Source: Caldifarciminota bacterium
GTDB taxonomy: Bacteria; Hydrothermota; Hydrothermia; LBFQ01; DSFT01
DNA: 64,000 nucleotides
NCBI GenBank assembly: GCA_025060695.1
Contig: JANXBH010000001.1
Span: 120,565-184,564 of the forward strand
Direction of reading: 5' to 3'
Both the position numbers and the translations under genes were made by a program. Positions 3,173 to 20,909 of this stretch are shown here, piece after piece. The number at the start of each line of letters is the position of its first letter. Within the stretch, counting starts at the first letter, position 1. A model generated the notes under the pieces. The model worked only from the letters and a program-made list of their open reading frames with translations. It had not been told where the DNA came from and did not search any database.

Positions 3173-4150
3173 CTAACATATAGGCTCGTACAGGTTTTTC
3201 TTTACACATTCCTTGAACTTGTTTACCCTTTCCAATCTTAAAACTTTCCTACTTTCAGCTGACTTAAATCTTTCAATCTCATAGTCCCTCCAAGGATTAA
3301 ATTGCTTTAATGGCTCAACTGAAACAAAAGTCATATAACTACTTGCAACTTTATATCTTGTTGAAGTAAGTGGCTCTTCTTTTATTATTTTTACACCAAC
3401 TTCAATAGAGCGATGACCTACATAGTTTATACCAAGGTAGAAATGCAAGATATCTCCAGTTCTTACAGGACAAATAAAGTCAAACTCATCGATTGATGCA
3501 GTAAACGACGGGCTTTTCGCATACTGAACACTTAAAATTCCACCAAGCTCATCTAACTTCTCAAACAAATAACCTGCAAACATTGTATTAGAATATATAG
3601 TTTCATATGGAAAAACAAGTTTTGCAGAATACAAACTATAGGTAGGGACTTTTGATGTATCTAAGTCATTTATGTCTAATTTTCTATTCTTTATCCTTTC
3701 TAATCTATACGCCCTTTTTTTAAGACCCCATTCGTATATTTGTTTTTCTTTTTCATCCTTTGGGACAACTTTTATGTCTAGCTTTCTTGGTTTTCCGCTT
3801 TCATCCACTGCAACGTATCCAAAATGAGCAAGTGTGACTACTTTTAATTCATTATCCTTTGTTCTTTTAAATACAGTAACACCTACTTCTAAAGAACTAT
3901 TAAAAGTTGCCTGCACTCTTGATCTAAAAATAAGTGTATCTCCACTATGTACAGGTTCTATAAAATCTACGCTATCCATAGAGCCAATTACAACTGGTCC
4001 TTGTGCTACTTTATTTGCAGAAAGAAGACTTGCCTGACTTATAAGATATAACATTTTACCGCCAAACATTGTATTTGCAGGATTTATAAAATAAGGAAAC
4101 ACATATTCGTATATTTCTATAACTGTATCAGAAATATTTATTTCCTTCAT
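3173..4150 (-). CDS. Acyl-CoA thioesterase, tandem hotdog domains
   Basis: 325 residues with two acyl-CoA hotdog domains. The first (about residues 10-125) has NTMFGGKMLYLIS and SVDFIEPVHSGD. The second (about 165-290) has NTMFAGYLFEKLDELGG and EFDFICPVRTGD. This double-hotdog layout is typical of BFIT/ACOT-like thioesterases that hydrolyse acyl-CoAs to free acid and CoA. A TTG at 4156 is also in frame, but minus-strand TAAAAT at 4162-4157 abuts that TTG and sits 6 nt before the ATG at 4150, so 4150 is the better start. The promoter and first codons lie within the 3' end of rdgB (23 bp overlap). Substrate chain length cannot be read from sequence. Confidence 0.85.
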   Translation of the reverse strand: MKEINISDTVIEIYEYVFPYFINPANTMFGGKMLYLISQASLLSANKVAQGPVVIGSMDSVDFIEPVHSGDTLIFRSRVQATFNSSLEVGVTVFKRTKDNELKVVTLAHFGYVAVDESGKPRKLDIKVVPKDEKEKQIYEWGLKKRAYRLERIKNRKLDINDLDTSKVPTYSLYSAKLVFPYETIYSNTMFAGYLFEKLDELGGILSVQYAKSPSFTASIDEFDFICPVRTGDILHFYLGINYVGHRSIEVGVKIIKEEPLTSTRYKVASSYMTFVSVEPLKQFNPWRDYEIERFKSAESRKVLRLERVNKFKECVKKNLYEPIC

Positions 4151-4730
4151 CTTCAAATTTTAAACTTAGAAAATCTCTAAGCTTTTTTAATGCAATAGCT
4201 CTATGACTAATTTTATTTTTAACTTCCATTTCTATTTCCCCAAATGTTTTTCCAATTGGTTTATAGTAAAATATTGGGTCATAACCAAAACCTTTATCTC
4301 CTCTTATTTGAAAACCAATTTCACCCTCCACCTTTCCCTCAAATACATGGCTTTCACCGTTGTTATTTATAAACACAATGACACAATGAAAATACGCACT
4401 TCTATTTTCTTTATCTTTCATAAGTTCTAAGATTTTTTCTAAATAGTCTGGATTTCCTTTTTGAAACTCAGCTGAATGAACACCGGGAAAACCACCTAAC
4501 GCCTCTATAAAAATACCAGAATCATCAGATATTACTGGCATTCCTGTTATTTCATGAACTTTCTTTGCCTTAATTAGTGCATTTTCTAATAGCGTCTTTC
4601 CAGTTTCCTCTATTTGAATATCTAAACTTATATCTTCCAAAGACAGAAATTCTATATCCTTAAAGTCCTTGAAAAAATTTTTAATTTCTTCTATTTTATG
4701 TTTATTTCTTGAAGAAATTAGAATTTTCAG
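4128..4730 (-). CDS. rdgB: RdgB/HAM1 XTP/dITP pyrophosphatase, CTG start
   Basis: House-cleaning nucleotide pyrophosphatase that removes dITP, XTP and ITP. From the CTG at 4730 the protein is 200 residues, the normal family length. It begins LKILISSRNKHKIEEI, which matches the family N-terminus (KILLATxNxGKxxEI) that binds the triphosphate. Other family marks are DDSG at 69-72, GGFPGVHSAEF, GFGYDPIF and KNKISHRA. No ATG, GTG or TTG precedes this essential N-terminal motif in frame; the first TTG (4640) would delete 30 residues. The CTG lies 3 nt after the last nucleotide of tRNA-Tyr, with no Shine-Dalgarno sequence. Function very secure; start codon strongly implied by homology. Confidence 0.9.
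   Translation of the reverse strand: MKILISSRNKHKIEEIKNFFKDFKDIEFLSLEDISLDIQIEETGKTLLENALIKAKKVHEITGMPVISDDSGIFIEALGGFPGVHSAEFQKGNPDYLEKILELMKDKENRSAYFHCVIVFINNNGESHVFEGKVEGEIGFQIRGDKGFGYDPIFYYKPIGKTFGEIEMEVKNKISHRAIALKKLRDFLSLKFEDEGNKYF
4157..4162 (-). promoter_or_regulatory. -10 element embedded in rdgB 3' end
   Basis: Minus-strand AGTTTAAAATTTG; TAAAAT ends 6 nt before the thioesterase ATG at 4150. It lies inside rdgB coding sequence and argues against the in-frame TTG at 4156. Confidence 0.5.
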
Positions 4731-4733
4731 TAG

Positions 4734-4818
4734 TGGGCAGGGTAGGATTTGAACCTACGTAGGGCGTTAGCCCAGCAGGTTTACAGCCTGCCCCCGTTGG
4801 CCGCTTGGGTACCTGCCC
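4734..4818 (-). tRNA. tRNA-Tyr (GTA)
   Basis: Acceptor GGGCAGG pairs with CCTGCCC, discriminator A, CCA not encoded. Anticodon stem-loop GCAGG-CTGTAAA-CCTGC gives anticodon GTA. It has a long class II variable arm (bacterial tRNA-Tyr) and T arm TAGGTTCAAATCCTA. It lies 4 nt downstream of tRNA-Thr and 3 nt upstream of the rdgB start, so all three are probably co-transcribed. Confidence 0.95.
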
Positions 4819-4822
4819 AAAA

Positions 4823-4895
4823 AGCCAGCGGGCGGACTCGAACCGCCGACCTGCTGATTACAAATCAGCCGCTCTACCAACTGAGCTACGCTGGC
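4823..4895 (-). tRNA. tRNA-Thr (TGT)
   Basis: 73 nt cloverleaf: acceptor GCCAGCG/CGCTGGC, D arm AGCTCAGTTGGTAGAGC, anticodon loop TTTGTAA (TGT), T arm GGCGGTTCGAGTCCGCC. The discriminator is T and CCA is not encoded. First gene of a Thr-Tyr-rdgB unit on the minus strand. Confidence 0.95.
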
Positions 4896-4901
4896 AAGGC
4901 T

Positions 4902-4915
4902 TTATAATTTTAAAG
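4902..4915. promoter_or_regulatory. Near-palindromic bidirectional promoter
   Basis: The box TTTATAATTTTAAA (preceded by C, followed by G) reads as CTTTATAATTTT on plus and CTTTAAAATTAT on minus. Plus TATAAT (4903-4908) ends 8 nt before the ATG at 4917. Minus TAAAAT (4912-4907) ends 11 nt before tRNA-Thr. Only 21 bp separate the divergent genes, so both -10 elements overlap on the same base pairs. Confidence 0.6.
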
Positions 4916-15909: not shown

Positions 15910-17080
15910 ATACCTCTAATATCATGCTTGCACCCATACCTCCACCTACACAAGCACTAACTATACCATAACCACCACCTCTTTTTCTTAATTCATGTAT
16001 TAATTTCGTTGTTAAAATAGCACCAGTTGCACCAAGTGGATGTCCAAGCGATATTGCTCCACCATTTACATTTAACTTCTCCAACGGTATGGGTAGTTCT
16101 CTTAATACCGCAATAACTTGTGTAGCAAATGCTTCATTTAGTTCAATAAGCTTTATATCATCTAATTTTAAGTTTGCTTTTCGTAATGACTTTGGAATAG
16201 CATATGCGGGTGCTATGCCCATTATTTCCGCAGGAACCCCAACAACTTGAAATGTAATAAATCTTGCAAGTGGCTTTAAACCAAGTTCTTTAGCTTTTCT
16301 CTCACTCATCATTAAAACCGCACTTGCACCATCACTCCTTTGAGAAGCATTACCTGCTGTAACAGTCCCATCTACCTTAAAATATGGTTTTAAACTCAGA
16401 AGTCCCTCTAATGTAGTATCTGGTCTTGGACATTCATCATGTTCAAAAATTTTTTCAATTAATTGACTATTTCCATCTTCATCTTCTATTCTAACTTTCA
16501 CTTTTATTGGGACAATTTCTTCTTTAAATTTTCCACTTAATACTGCCTGAGCTCCTCTTGTGTGAGATAAATATGCAAATTCGTCTACTTCCCTTCTTGT
16601 AATATTATAAATAGGAACTAAGTTTTCCGCAGTTAGTCCCATATTTAAATAGTAGTGTGGAAAATTTTGAGCAACATATGGCTCAGGTCTAAATTTATAA
16701 CCCGGCATAGGAACTAAACTCATATTTTCAACACCACCCGCTATTGCAACATCTATTTCACCAACTATAATCCTATGAGCAGTCTGAGCTATAGTTTGTA
16801 TAGATGATGCACAGTATCTATTAACTGTTACAGCAGGAATTGAGTTTGGAAGCCCTGCTCTGTAAATTACTGTTCTTGCAAGGTTCATACCCTGATATGC
16901 CTCAGGAAACGCACATCCAATAGACACGTCTTCTATTATATATGGTTCTATTTTCGTTTCATCCAATATAGCTTTAATTACTTCAGATAGTAGATATTCT
17001 GGTCTTGTGTCCTTTAGTGTTCCTTTAATTGCTTTTCCTATAGCTGTTCGCTTTGCACTAACAATTACAGCGTTGTTCAC
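15899..17080 (-). CDS. Acetyl-CoA C-acyltransferase (thiolase)
   Basis: 393 residues. Full thiolase with nucleophilic Cys90 in VNRYCASSIQ, His347 in SLGHPLGATGA and Cys377 in VSACVGGGMGAS. Thiolases cleave 3-ketoacyl-CoA or condense two acetyl-CoA; the direction cannot be told from sequence. The start is GTG at 17080, with a TAAACT -10 ending 7 nt upstream. First gene of the minus-strand unit with the MCE protein and acyltransferase, which suggests lipid metabolism, together with the enoyl-CoA hydratase at 51559. Confidence 0.93.
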   Translation of the reverse strand: MNNAVIVSAKRTAIGKAIKGTLKDTRPEYLLSEVIKAILDETKIEPYIIEDVSIGCAFPEAYQGMNLARTVIYRAGLPNSIPAVTVNRYCASSIQTIAQTAHRIIVGEIDVAIAGGVENMSLVPMPGYKFRPEPYVAQNFPHYYLNMGLTAENLVPIYNITRREVDEFAYLSHTRGAQAVLSGKFKEEIVPIKVKVRIEDEDGNSQLIEKIFEHDECPRPDTTLEGLLSLKPYFKVDGTVTAGNASQRSDGASAVLMMSERKAKELGLKPLARFITFQVVGVPAEIMGIAPAYAIPKSLRKANLKLDDIKLIELNEAFATQVIAVLRELPIPLEKLNVNGGAISLGHPLGATGAILTTKLIHELRKRGGGYGIVSACVGGGMGASMILEVYGS

Positions 17081-17093: not shown

Positions 17094-17105
17094 AAGTAGA
17101 TGCTT

Positions 17106-17111
17106 TAAAAT
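17106..17111 (+). promoter_or_regulatory. -10 element of tRNA-Val and glycosyltransferase unit
   Basis: TGCTTTAAAATTTTG; TAAAAT ends 11 nt before the mature 5' end of tRNA-Val. No other promoter is visible for the glycosyltransferase that follows. Confidence 0.55.
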
Positions 17112-17122
17112 TTTGGAAAATT

Positions 17123-17196
17123 GGGCGGGTAGCTCAGCTGGTGAGAGCGCTGCCCTTACAAGGCAGAGGTCAGAGGTTCAAGTCCTCTCCCGCCCA
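17123..17196 (+). tRNA. tRNA-Val (TAC)
   Basis: 74 nt cloverleaf: acceptor GGGCGGG/CCCGCCC, discriminator A, anticodon stem-loop TGCCC/CTTACAA/GGCAG region (TAC), T arm AGAGGTTCAAGTCCTCT. CCA not encoded. It ends 2 nt before the probable ATA start of the glycosyltransferase. Confidence 0.95.
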
Positions 17197-17198
17197 TA

Positions 17199-17864
17199 AT
17201 AAAATATATTATCATTGTCCCAACTTATAATGAATTTCCTAAGATAATCCAAACAATTGAAAATCTAAAAAACTATAATTACGATGTATTATTCATAGAT
17301 GATGGATCAAGCGATGGAACATTTGAAGTTATTAAAAGTTCTGGTTTTAAATATATAAAAAATCAAAAAAATTTTGGAAAGGGTTATAGTATAAAAAGGG
17401 GTTTAGAATATGCTATCTTAAATAACTATCAAGTAGTAATCACATTAGATGCGGATGGACAACATCCAATAGAATACATTCCGAAATTCATAGAGAAGAT
17501 TCAAAACTACGATATTGTTATTGGTTCAAGAAGAAAACTTATGCATCCAAAAAATATGCCATTTGATAGGTATATTTCCAATAGACTAAACTCTTCAATT
17601 GTTTCAATTTTTTGCAATAAAATTATACCAGATGCACTCTGTGGCTATAGGGCAATTAGAACCAAGATTTTAAAGGATATTAACTTTAATTGTAATAGAT
17701 TTGAATTTGAAATAGAGTTCATAGTAAAAGCTTGTAAATATGGATTTAGTATTGGATTCTTAGATATACCTTTAATTTATAAGGATGAAAAAAGCCATAT
17801 AAGAAAAGTCTTAGATACATTAAGAGTAATGAAATTATACTTCAGCTTTATCTTGTTTTCTTAG
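17199..17864 (+). CDS. Family 2 glycosyltransferase, DPM1-like, probable ATA start
   Basis: 221 residues from ATA at 17199, reading IKYIIIVPTYNEF. GT-A motifs are complete: VPTYNE, FIDDGSSDG, NFGKGYSIKRG, LDADGQH (nucleotide/metal binding), GSRR, and ALCGYRAI in the acceptor region. It has no transmembrane segment and resembles soluble dolichyl/polyprenyl-phosphate sugar transferases. The frame is open from 17145, inside tRNA-Val, yet has no ATG, GTG or TTG before the ATG at 17541, which lies past the catalytic motifs. A start at 17541 would give a dead 107-residue fragment. Hence an AUA (or nearby AUU) start, or a sequencing error at that base. Confidence 0.82.
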   Translation: MKYIIIVPTYNEFPKIIQTIENLKNYNYDVLFIDDGSSDGTFEVIKSSGFKYIKNQKNFGKGYSIKRGLEYAILNNYQVVITLDADGQHPIEYIPKFIEKIQNYDIVIGSRRKLMHPKNMPFDRYISNRLNSSIVSIFCNKIIPDALCGYRAIRTKILKDINFNCNRFEFEIEFIVKACKYGFSIGFLDIPLIYKDEKSHIRKVLDTLRVMKLYFSFILFS

Positions 17865-17889: not shown

Positions 17890-18846
17890 ATGAAAACATT
17901 GGAATATCTTATTAATTTTGAAGGCAAGATATGTCTTATTGCACATAGTAATCCCGACCCTGATTGTATTGGGAGTATGTTAGCACTATATAATTACCTT
18001 AATAAGTTTAATAAAGATGTTATTATGATTTCAAAAGACGAGCCTATAGGAACTATAAAATATTTAAAAGGTTTTGACAAAATAATTAGAATAGGGAATT
18101 TACCTGAGACGGATTTATACGTACTAATTGACCAGTCTGAAGTGGAAAGAAGCGGAATAAATCCAGAGGAATTTAAAGATAAAAACATAATAAAAATTGA
18201 CCATCATATTACAAATAAAAAATATAGTGAATATGACTATATAGATGAAAATGCTCCATCAACAACTTCATTAATGTTAGAACTTATGAGAAACTACAAT
18301 GAAGAATTAATAGATGAAAATATAGCTGAGTGTATATTCGTAGGCTTGTCAGCAGATACAGGAAACTTTTCGTTCTCTAATTTAAAAGTAGCATTTGAAA
18401 ATGCTCTATATTTAGCAAATAGGGGATTTAATATAAATAGATTTTCTGAGAAGTTTTTAAGAAATCAGTCCATAAATAGAATGGAGTTAATAAGATTAGC
18501 ACTATCTACATTAAGGTATGAAGATAACATTGGATATATTATAATAAGAAAAAAATTTTATGAAATTTCAGGAGCAAAGAAATATGAAAATTATGGAATA
18601 GTAGATATTCCTTTATCTTTAAGTAATGTGAAAGTTGCTCTGAAATTTGAAGAAATGGAAAATGGCTGGAAAGTGAATTTAAGAAGTAAAGAAAATATTG
18701 ATGTTCAGAAATTTGCTGAAAAGCACAATGGTGGTGGTCATAAAAATGCATCCGCTTTTAGAATTAATGAGAAAATTCCTGAAAGTGAACTTATAGAGCG
18801 TATTATTGAAGATTTGAAAAACTACTTAAAAACTATTCATGAATAA
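17890..18846 (+). CDS. nrnA: DHH/DHHA1 phosphoesterase (NrnA-like oligoribonuclease / pAp phosphatase)
   Basis: 318 residues. The DHH domain has HSNPDPDCIGS (residues 19-29), LIDQSE, IDHHITN (the DHH motif) and GLSADTGNF. The C-terminal DHHA1 domain has the substrate motif GGGHKNASAF. The NrnA family degrades 2-5 nt RNA fragments and can hydrolyse pAp with Mn2+. Single-gene unit with a -10 ending 10 nt upstream; its 3' end overlaps the convergent NtrC-like gene by 14 bp. Confidence 0.9.
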   Translation: MKTLEYLINFEGKICLIAHSNPDPDCIGSMLALYNYLNKFNKDVIMISKDEPIGTIKYLKGFDKIIRIGNLPETDLYVLIDQSEVERSGINPEEFKDKNIIKIDHHITNKKYSEYDYIDENAPSTTSLMLELMRNYNEELIDENIAECIFVGLSADTGNFSFSNLKVAFENALYLANRGFNINRFSEKFLRNQSINRMELIRLALSTLRYEDNIGYIIIRKKFYEISGAKKYENYGIVDIPLSLSNVKVALKFEEMENGWKVNLRSKENIDVQKFAEKHNGGGHKNASAFRINEKIPESELIERIIEDLKNYLKTIHE

Positions 18847-19960
18847 TAGCTTTGATTTCTTTTATTTCTTCGCCATTTTTAACATTTAAAACTTCTAATA
18901 GTCTATCAAGGTCATTGTTAAGAAATTCATAAATAAAGCGAATAATATTTTTAAAGTTTCTGTCAGTTAATTGTTTTAACTCATTATAGCTAATACTTCT
19001 TAAATGAAAGAGCATAATTTTGGAAAAGAAATCAATAATATTTAAGTTATAATCCTTTTCAAAGAAAGCTTTTATGTGAATAGGTAAATTTTTAAACTTT
19101 AAAAGTTTTTTCTCAATTGATAGTGCATATCTAATAGCATTTTCTATCTCACTAAAATTTCCAAACCAAGGATAAGTTAAGTACGCTCTATAAAAGTCCT
19201 CTTCAATTTCTACCATTTCATTCGTAATATTTCTTAAAAAGTGCTCTAATATAAGTAGTTTCTCTTTATGGTTTCTTTCAGAGATAGATGGTATATAGAT
19301 TGATGGTACTGTAGAAAGATTTATAGGTGGAGAGATATTGTCCGTAATGAATACAATTCTTCCTTTCTTTTTATATATACTATTTACAGCAAAATTAAAT
19401 TCAAGAATACTTTCAAATAGGTCTATATTCATTATAATTATTGACTTAGTCTTTTCTTTTTCTTTTCTAAAACCCACTTCCTTTTCCTCAATTTCAAAAT
19501 AGTCTACTGCTCTATCTCCAATTATAGAGCGTATAATTGTATATTTACCAACACCCCTTTGACCATATATCAAAATCCAAGGTTCATACTCACTATTTAG
19601 TAGTATTTCAAGTTTTCTATATATGTCATCTGTTTTTCCATAATAGCAAACAAAGTTTACATTTGCAGGCTTTAAATCGTTTATAGCATAGTATTTATTA
19701 TAAAATTCTATCATTCTTTGTCTAATAGTTTTTTTTGAATAGACTTCAAGAAAGTTATTTAAATCATCTTCGTTTTCAAAAGAATAGTCTATAGTTTGTA
19801 AGTTAGAAGAGCCTATAGTTATAGTTGTAAAATTCAGAGATATTTCATACAGTTCCTTGTAATTATTATCAGCAATTACAACGTCTGGGAATTCATCTAT
19901 GTTTACTTGATTGTAGCTTTCCTTTATTTTAATATTTTTAGATAAATTAAGAATTTTCAA
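18833..19960 (-). CDS. Degenerate NtrC-like AAA+ protein, TTG start behind tRNA-Gly
   Basis: 375 residues from TTG at 19960 (LKILNLSKN). An upstream TTG at 19990 lies inside tRNA-Gly and is unlikely. The N-terminal ~75 residues look like a worn receiver domain (FPDVVIADNN) without a full acidic pocket. The AAA+ part has Walker A GQRGVGKYT (near 139-147), a sensor region FITDN, PSISERNHKEKLLILEHFL and YPWFGNFSEIENAI, which matches the YPWPGNxRELEN box of sigma-54 activators. The GAFTGA loop that contacts sigma-54 is absent and no Fis helix-turn-helix is seen at the C-terminus. It may be a non-transcriptional paralogue. The start is 3 nt after the tRNA. Confidence 0.65.
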   Translation of the reverse strand: MKILNLSKNIKIKESYNQVNIDEFPDVVIADNNYKELYEISLNFTTITIGSSNLQTIDYSFENEDDLNNFLEVYSKKTIRQRMIEFYNKYYAINDLKPANVNFVCYYGKTDDIYRKLEILLNSEYEPWILIYGQRGVGKYTIIRSIIGDRAVDYFEIEEKEVGFRKEKEKTKSIIIMNIDLFESILEFNFAVNSIYKKKGRIVFITDNISPPINLSTVPSIYIPSISERNHKEKLLILEHFLRNITNEMVEIEEDFYRAYLTYPWFGNFSEIENAIRYALSIEKKLLKFKNLPIHIKAFFEKDYNLNIIDFFSKIMLFHLRSISYNELKQLTDRNFKNIIRFIYEFLNNDLDRLLEVLNVKNGEEIKEIKAIIHE

Positions 19961-19963
19961 AAG

Positions 19964-20035
19964 AGCGAGCGACGGGACTTGAACCCGCAACCCCCAGCTT
20001 GGAAGGCTGGCGCTCTACCGTTGAGCTACGCTCGC
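19964..20035 (-). tRNA. tRNA-Gly (TCC)
   Basis: 72 nt cloverleaf: acceptor GCGAGCG/CGCTCGC, discriminator T, D arm AGCTCAACGGTAGAGC, anticodon loop CTTCCAA (TCC), T arm GCGGGTTCAAGTCCCG. CCA not encoded. The NtrC-like gene starts 3 nt downstream. Confidence 0.95.
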
Positions 20036-20045
20036 TAAGTATAAA

Positions 20046-20051
20046 ATTTTA
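20046..20051 (-). promoter_or_regulatory. -10 element of tRNA-Gly unit
   Basis: Minus-strand TGCTTTAAAATTTTA; TAAAAT ends 10 nt before the tRNA 5' end. It overlaps the stop codon of lpxK. The downstream NtrC-like gene has no other visible promoter. Confidence 0.55.
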
Positions 20052-20909
20052 AAGCATAGATAAAATTCTTTGAGAATCATAAACTTGTAAATCAATGTCC
20101 AAGTAGTATATATTTTCTTTATTTTCAATTTTTACAAAGTCCTTTAAAGTGGTTATTATAGGAAGGTTGAATTTCCTTAATGGTTTTAAATCACTTTCTT
20201 TATAGTAGTGATGGTCAGGAAATTCTTTAAAATATATAAGATTAAATGTTTTACTTACTATATTCTTAAAACTCCTACTATCCGCAATGCCACAGAAAGC
20301 CACAACATCTTTAAAGTTATATGGATTTATTATTTTATATCTTATGCTGACAGCAGGCTTTCCATAAAATTCAGAAATCTCAAAAAACTCAGAAAATTTA
20401 AAATTTATTACTATAAAATCTACCCTCTTTATTTCAGTTATAGGTTCTCTATATTTCCCAAATGGAAATACTTTCCAACCCCTAAGTTCATTGTAGTTTA
20501 TAATCAATATTTTTTTATCAAAGTCTATCCTCCAATACTGTAATGCATCATCAAATAGTAAAATATGAGGTTTAAATAGTTCAATGCCAATTTTTGATGC
20601 AAGAAATCTGTCTTTATATACAAGAACTTTCAAACCTGTTTTAAGATGTATTAAATATGGCTCATCACCTACTAAGCTGACATCTATATCTTTGTCCCTA
20701 ATTAACTGAACATGCTTGTTTTTCCTCTTATAACCTCTACTTAGAACAATTACATTATACCTCTGTTTTAGCTTATTTGCTAAGAATATAGTAAATGGAG
20801 TTTTCCCTGTTCCACCAAATGAAAAATTTCCAATAGCTATTGTTTTTGCATCTAACTTTTCTGGCTTTATTAAAGATCTATGTATCTTAGAGATATAGTA
20901 GTAAATCAC
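20049..20909 (-). CDS. lpxK: Tetraacyldisaccharide 4'-kinase
   Basis: 286 residues. Phosphorylates the lipid A disaccharide at 4' on the inner membrane. The P-loop GGTGKTP (residues 32-38), VLSRGYKRK, VGDEPYLI, and LLFDDALQYW in place of the common DDGFQ mark the family. It shows that the cell makes lipid A. GTG start overlaps the ribA stop (GTGA), so translation is probably coupled. It is somewhat shorter than proteobacterial LpxK (about 330). Confidence 0.9.
   Translation of the reverse strand: MIYYYISKIHRSLIKPEKLDAKTIAIGNFSFGGTGKTPFTIFLANKLKQRYNVIVLSRGYKRKNKHVQLIRDKDIDVSLVGDEPYLIHLKTGLKVLVYKDRFLASKIGIELFKPHILLFDDALQYWRIDFDKKILIINYNELRGWKVFPFGKYREPITEIKRVDFIVINFKFSEFFEISEFYGKPAVSIRYKIINPYNFKDVVAFCGIADSRSFKNIVSKTFNLIYFKEFPDHHYYKESDLKPLRKFNLPIITTLKDFVKIENKENIYYLDIDLQVYDSQRILSML

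Follow-up and report, generated by a model that had tools for sequence, protein, structure and literature searches.

tRNA punctuation of a mitochondrial kind with AUA- and CUG-tolerant leaderless initiation as the best reading of a tRNA-Val/glycosyltransferase junction in a WOR-3-phylum bacterium

The tRNA-Val/GT2 junction

The window (the whole stretch of DNA analysed, 64,000 nt) belongs to a genome designated G000, and was compared with a second species of the same genus (G001) and with two more distant members of the same family (G002 and G003). At its centre of interest, a promoter-like TTTAAAATT box, a tRNA-Val gene, and a glycosyltransferase gene (hereafter GT2) follow one another within a short distance, and a gene for a DHH-type phosphoesterase lies 3' of GT2 (Table 1). 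The ends of the tRNA-Val are placed at 17123-17196 by Rfam, with the acceptor stem GGGCGGG/CCCGCCC, and at 17122-17197 by ARAGORN, i.e. one base more on each side. A divergent gene on the minus strand, of the thiolase family by its sequence, starts at 17080; because this gene lies on the opposite strand, transcription of GT2 must begin between 17080 and 17199. The box at 17104-17112 is the sole TTTAAAATT box between 17080 and the GT2 frame, and a search for an internal promoter in tRNA-Val found no TTTAAAATT box besides the one 5' of the tRNA. The ATG of the phosphoesterase gene is preceded by CTTTAAACTTT, which is a one-base variant of the TTTAAAATT box.

As described in a previous sequence-only reading of this DNA, the GT2 frame runs without interruption from position 17145, which lies within the tRNA, up to 17864 (stop codon, 17862-17864), and its first ATG, GTG, or TTG is found at 17541. 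The ATA at 17199 is in this frame, 2 nt past the tRNA-Val discriminator, and these 2 nt make a Shine-Dalgarno site between the tRNA and the ATA impossible, both as previously stated. The 5' sequence of GT2 from 17199 reads ATA AAA TAT ATT ATC ATT GTC CCA ACT TAT AAT GAA. The product matches PF00535 (Glycos_transf_2) with 98.4 bits (cutoff, 23.3) over residues 5-161, contains the catalytic motifs (DDGS and DxD, with invariant D34 D35 and D84 D86 QH), and has dolichol monophosphate mannose synthase 5mlz as its nearest PDB sequence (E 1e-18).

Table 1. Features of the tRNA/gene junctions in the window and of genes with non-standard starts elsewhere in the genome (positions are those of the window unless a locus is given)
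Feature	Position	Strand	Remarks
TTTAAAATT promoter-like box	17104..17112	+	10 nt 5' of tRNA-Val
tRNA-Val(TAC)	17123..17196	+	discriminator A at 17196; CCA not encoded
Spacer TA, 2 nt	17197..17198	+	longest leader that a processed mRNA could have
Putative ATA start codon of GT2	17199..17201	+	ATA in G001, ATG in G002/G003, same column
GT2 glycosyltransferase, 221 aa, polyprenyl-phosphate sugar transferase-like	17199..17864	+	PF00535, PDB match
DHH-type phosphoesterase gene, 3' of GT2	17890..18846	+	named by sequence inspection, no family search
TTTAAAATT box of tRNA-Thr/tRNA-Tyr/rdgB	4906..4914	-	
tRNA-Thr(TGT)	4823..4895	-	first of a tRNA pair
tRNA-Tyr(GTA)	4734..4818	-	
rdgB (Ham1 family)	4128..4730	-	CTG start at 4730, 3 nt past tRNA-Tyr; Pfam
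TTTAAAATT box of tRNA-Gly	20045..20053	-	
tRNA-Gly(TCC)	19964..20035	-	
AAA+/NtrC-like gene	18833..19960	-	TTG start at 19960, 3 nt past tRNA-Gly
suhB (inositol monophosphatase family)	L268:2439-3209; in G001, L277	-	leaderless ATA, no tRNA nearby
coaX (type III pantothenate kinase)	L071:15311-16003	-	apparently leaderless ATA
polA	L069:18690-20000	+	apparently leaderless CTG; first ATG is codon 81
lepB (signal peptidase I)	L266:19411-20000	+	CTG 6 nt past TTTAAAATT box; TTG in G001

Conservation of the ATA codon

The proposal that GT2 starts at ATA 17199 had been accompanied by the suggestion to compare orthologous junctions in related genomes, and this comparison supports it. G001 encodes a GT2 orthologue (64% protein identity) that likewise follows tRNA-Val, and its ATA occupies the corresponding position (junction 'CCCGCCCA TT ATA AAG TAT CTT'). 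In G002 and G003, the orthologues carry ATG in precisely the alignment column of the ATA, and no tRNA was found within 1.5 kb upstream of GT2 in these two genomes.

Among the 12 ATA codons of GT2, 5 (including the start) are kept as ATA in G001, and a single conserved ATA would alone be weak evidence for a start codon. It carries weight because G002 and G003 have ATG in its place, because there is no other candidate, and because ATA is the only candidate start in a leaderless position for other genes of G000 as well. A recoding of AUA to methionine throughout the genome was ruled out: internal ATA codons are freely exchanged with ATT between G000 and G001, and AUA inside genes is therefore still read as isoleucine. 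On these sequence comparisons, the interpretation of ATA 17199 as the start codon of GT2 appears supported.

tRNA/gene junctions in the window and the genome

Two further junctions noted earlier, tRNA-Tyr/rdgB and tRNA-Gly/AAA+-type (NtrC-like) gene, have the described layout. The start codon of rdgB is CTG in both G000 and G001 and ATG at the same column in G002 and G003, and the TTG start of the AAA+/NtrC-like gene is found behind the same tRNA in G001 and G002 as well. The pattern extends from these three junctions to the entire genome, and AUA and CUG starts also occur at genes without any link to a tRNA.

In total, 42 tRNA genes were identified in G000, none of which encodes CCA (0/42, script count), and 35 of them are the last in their group (terminal). 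At 26 of the 35 terminal tRNAs, an ORF start is located 0-9 nt past the discriminator; by inspection of the listed junctions, these starts comprise 12 ATG, 10 TTG, 3 CTG, and 1 ATA. With a strict gene-start criterion, a start was found within ~8 nt at 16 of 26 terminal tRNAs, compared with 2.1% of random positions (755 kb; the genome statistics cover 755 kb of the 1.5 Mb plus the tRNA loci). In the window genus, the starts cluster 0-4 nt past the tRNA. The layout is common to G000 and G001 and is mostly absent in G018, a more distant member of the class.

The three CTG junction genes encode RdgB, an O-antigen-ligase-like membrane protein, and a HAD phosphatase. The HAD gene lies behind the same tRNA in both species, and its CTG in G000 is aligned with an ATG in G001; the CTG starts of rdgB and the HAD gene are thus confirmed by the aligned ATG codons of their orthologues (G002/G003 and G001, respectively). 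A TTTAAAATT box is present 6-16 nt 5' of most tRNAs that head a group. tRNA-Gly(CCC) (L258, 4496-4567, minus strand; also found in G001, L107) lacks such a box in G000, and the leaderless gene behind it is a separate one that has a TTTAAAATT box to itself; this tRNA may depend on transcription from the upstream gene.

Leaderless expression and non-standard starts away from tRNAs

The distance from an exact TTTAAAATT box to the first start codon downstream has a sharp peak at 14-19 nt; at many protein genes, the gap between box and start is ~5-10 nt, often ~6 nt. In other genes, Shine-Dalgarno-like words are most frequent at -11 to -14. The 3' end of the 16S rRNA has the usual anti-Shine-Dalgarno sequence CCTCC. 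In the 755 kb, 215 boxes are followed by a standard start 4-11 nt downstream (ATG, 156; TTG, 36; GTG, 23). This spacing points to leaderless mRNAs, from which a sizeable share of G000 genes appears to be expressed, and an mRNA released by tRNA processing would be leaderless too.

Several genes in such positions offer only non-standard starts (Table 1), and their identities were confirmed by Pfam. The suhB gene starts with ATA in both G000 and G001, with the box 7 and 4 nt upstream, respectively, and with ATG in G002 and G003. In a PCuAC gene, the ATA of G000 is aligned with an ATG in G001, and each of the two stands just behind the box. The first standard start of coaX is codon 65. In relatives, the ATG of coaX is one codon off, and for coaX and polA generally it lies one or two codons from the proposed start, which counts against the assignment of these two starts. 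The start of an EamA gene is either ATT or ATA.

An unbiased scan for frames behind a box that lack a standard start yielded four, all with CTG, ATA, or ATT 6-8 nt past the box. Three of the four are recognisable genes, each with CTG or ATA 6-7 nt past the box. An ATT hit in L261, which looks like a spurious or antisense frame, was left out. An ATT start considered for an RND transporter gene was rejected, as the TTG of the G001 orthologue aligns with an in-frame TTG in G000. An unusual initiator tRNA was also sought and rejected: the gene looks ordinary, with the 1-72 position unpaired and GGG/CCC anticodon-stem pairs. IF3 is present in G000.

The GT2 junction in other families of the class

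In several other families, the GT2 orthologue is located directly behind tRNA-Pro(GGG). In G018, G023, and G026, which belong to one genus (g6), the A of the GT2 ATG is the discriminator base of the tRNA-Pro, and G013 has ATA at the same discriminator-overlapping place ('CGCCCCG ATA TAT AAA TTT'). The discriminator-overlapping starts were found at loci L013, L019, L020, and L016. In G035 (L017), CCA of the tRNA-Pro is encoded and the GT2 frame offers only ATT, which shares the last A of this CCA. The ATG of GT2 is located ~10-20 nt past the tRNA in G020, G027, G034, and G039. These junctions across families show that the tRNA/GT2 arrangement is old and that ATA arose at the junction at least twice. 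In genus g6, a normal tRNA cut would destroy the start codon that overlaps the discriminator, so that cutting and translation would compete, and one transcript may become either a tRNA or an mRNA.

Proposed expression of GT2 and alternative readings

The anatomy of the junction, its conservation, and the genome-wide pattern are direct observations; that tRNA and gene are co-transcribed, that the transcript is cut at the 3' end of the tRNA, and that translation begins at AUA with methionine is what we infer. In the proposed mechanism, tRNA-Val and GT2 would form one transcription unit from the TTTAAAATT box 5' of the tRNA, and excision of the tRNA-Val would leave a GT2 mRNA with a leader of ~2 nt. 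The formation of this mRNA by tRNA 3' processing fits because no other promoter box lies between the tRNA and the gene. The ribosome would then initiate without a Shine-Dalgarno site, as it presumably does on many leaderless mRNAs of G000. Leaderless initiation in this lineage would accept AUA, CUG, and UUG besides AUG, with AUA used in GT2 and presumably read by the ordinary initiator tRNA. We regard this sequence of events, a bacterial counterpart of mitochondrial tRNA punctuation, as probable (roughly 0.7).

Two observations weigh against this mechanism: the g6 start codons that a normal cut would destroy, and the outcome of the search for the nuclease. With TIGR02651, the only match in G000 (assembly 95% complete) was a below-cutoff, lactonase-like one at C3:23519-23935, which was rejected as an RNase Z since it is closer to metallo-beta-lactamase/hydroxyacylglutathione hydrolases. 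TIGR02650, a model that cross-matches 11 of 14 control genomes, detected no RNase Z in five WOR-3-phylum genomes (G000, G001, G002, G003, and G018). A canonical RNase Z was thus not found in the five genomes, though their tRNAs are mostly without encoded CCA; either RNase Z has diverged, or it is missing from the drafts, or another nuclease acts. The broader proposal that the lineage evolved a mitochondrion-like punctuation, with most tRNA genes serving as 5' processing signals, leaderless AUA and CUG starts, and a nuclease that is possibly not RNase Z, seems to us evenly balanced.

It is also conceivable that the AUA start is real but that ribosomes initiate on the uncut tRNA-mRNA, in which the folded tRNA would act as a structured leader, a given transcript ending up as either tRNA or mRNA. 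The failure to find a canonical RNase Z and the overlap of the GT2 start with the tRNA-Pro discriminator (ATG in g6, ATA in G013) are in favour of this possibility. However, neither the tRNA 3' arm nor the spacer contains a Shine-Dalgarno site, the narrow 0-4 nt range of starts in the window genus is what a 5' end produced by the cut would give, and G000 uses leaderless starts on many other genes; initiation on the uncut transcript is therefore considered unlikely. A start of GT2 at another unusual codon nearby, either ATA 17196, which includes the discriminator, or an isoleucine codon such as ATT 17208, is less probable still: both codons are in frame, and starts that overlap the discriminator occur in other families, but in G001 the position of ATA 17196 reads ATT and the fourth codon is CTT. 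By contrast, ATA 17199 is kept in G001 and aligns exactly with the ATG of G002 and G003.

The window assembly is a draft of 77 contigs, and a true ATG could have been changed to ATA by a sequencing or assembly error. This explanation is very improbable and was rejected for GT2, because the same ATA is present in the independently assembled G001; in addition, suhB starts with ATA in both species, and several non-AUG starts recur at orthologous positions. Finally, the N-terminal half of GT2 could be a relic, with translation limited to the 107-aa ORF that begins at 17541, the first standard start codon. This idea can practically be dismissed, as the GT2 domain match extends over residues 5-161 and codons 1-114 are more conserved between G000 and G001 than the remainder (71 and 57% amino acid identity, respectively). 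Codons 1-114 have a dN of 0.19, a dS of 1.04, and a dN/dS of ~0.18, a sign of purifying selection from which it follows that the sequence 5' of the first ATG is also translated in the GT2 frame.

Comparison with known systems

In animal mitochondrial DNA, tRNAs punctuate the transcript: they are excised, and the mRNAs are leaderless and start with AUA, AUU, or AUG. G000 resembles this system in that tRNA and ORF are at most a few nt apart, a leaderless mRNA would result, AUA is among the starts, and the majority of terminal tRNAs are used in this way. It differs in that most tRNAs or groups of tRNAs are preceded by a TTTAAAATT promoter instead of all lying in one polycistron, and in that AUA inside genes still reads as isoleucine. 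Leaderless initiation is considered to need a strong match between start codon and anticodon, as the mRNA has no other hold on the ribosome. To our knowledge, AUA starts are rare in bacteria, and leaderless AUA starts are not known there.

Leaderless genes led by a -10-like box ~10 bp before the start, without a Shine-Dalgarno site, have been described in Actinobacteria and Deinococcus-Thermus (PMC3160421, PMC4633059, PMC3848588). The -10-like box ahead of start codons without a Shine-Dalgarno site is likewise found genome-wide in G000, but here UUG is common (TTG at 36 of the 215 boxes), and CUG and AUA occur. In Propionibacterium acnes, which was reported to be without an obvious RNase Z, leaderless starts are AUG (68%), GUG (29%), and UUG (3%) (PMC3848588). 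The leaderless mRNAs of mycobacteria start only at AUG or GUG (PMC4633059), which counts against the AUA reading; this rule is not universal, it does not hold in G000, and the conserved AUA and CUG on leaderless messages contradict it.

Natural AUA starts are found in infC, ccpN, and citZ of S. aureus, and AUU in cvfC1; the conserved cases (infC, ccpN, and cvfC1) have extended Shine-Dalgarno motifs and were read as attenuated expression (PMC13009471). In GT2 and suhB, AUA is similarly the conserved start of a chromosomal gene, in both species, but GT2 is without any Shine-Dalgarno site. In Nanoarchaeum equitans, a tRNA half forms the 5' UTR of valS (PMC3491384), so that a tRNA sequence is directly 5' of a coding gene in one transcript, as at our junction; unlike in G000, this is one archaeal case, in which the tRNA half is kept as a leader, there is no AUA start, and the arrangement is not a general layout.

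Leaderless genes, rare AUA starts, and mitochondrial tRNA punctuation are thus known singly. In the open-access literature, we found tRNA punctuation described for mitochondria only, with no bacterial description, and none of a bacterial combination of the three or of AUA and CUG on leaderless mRNAs. The best reading of our data is a WOR-3-phylum bacterium in which leaderless initiation tolerates AUA and CUG and tRNA punctuation is of the mitochondrial kind. In such genomes, gene finders restricted to ATG, GTG, and TTG would truncate or miss essential genes (e.g. polA by 81 codons, coaX by 65, and rdgB by 30). With this lineage, both tRNA punctuation and its non-AUG starts could be tested in a bacterial setting and not in organelles alone.
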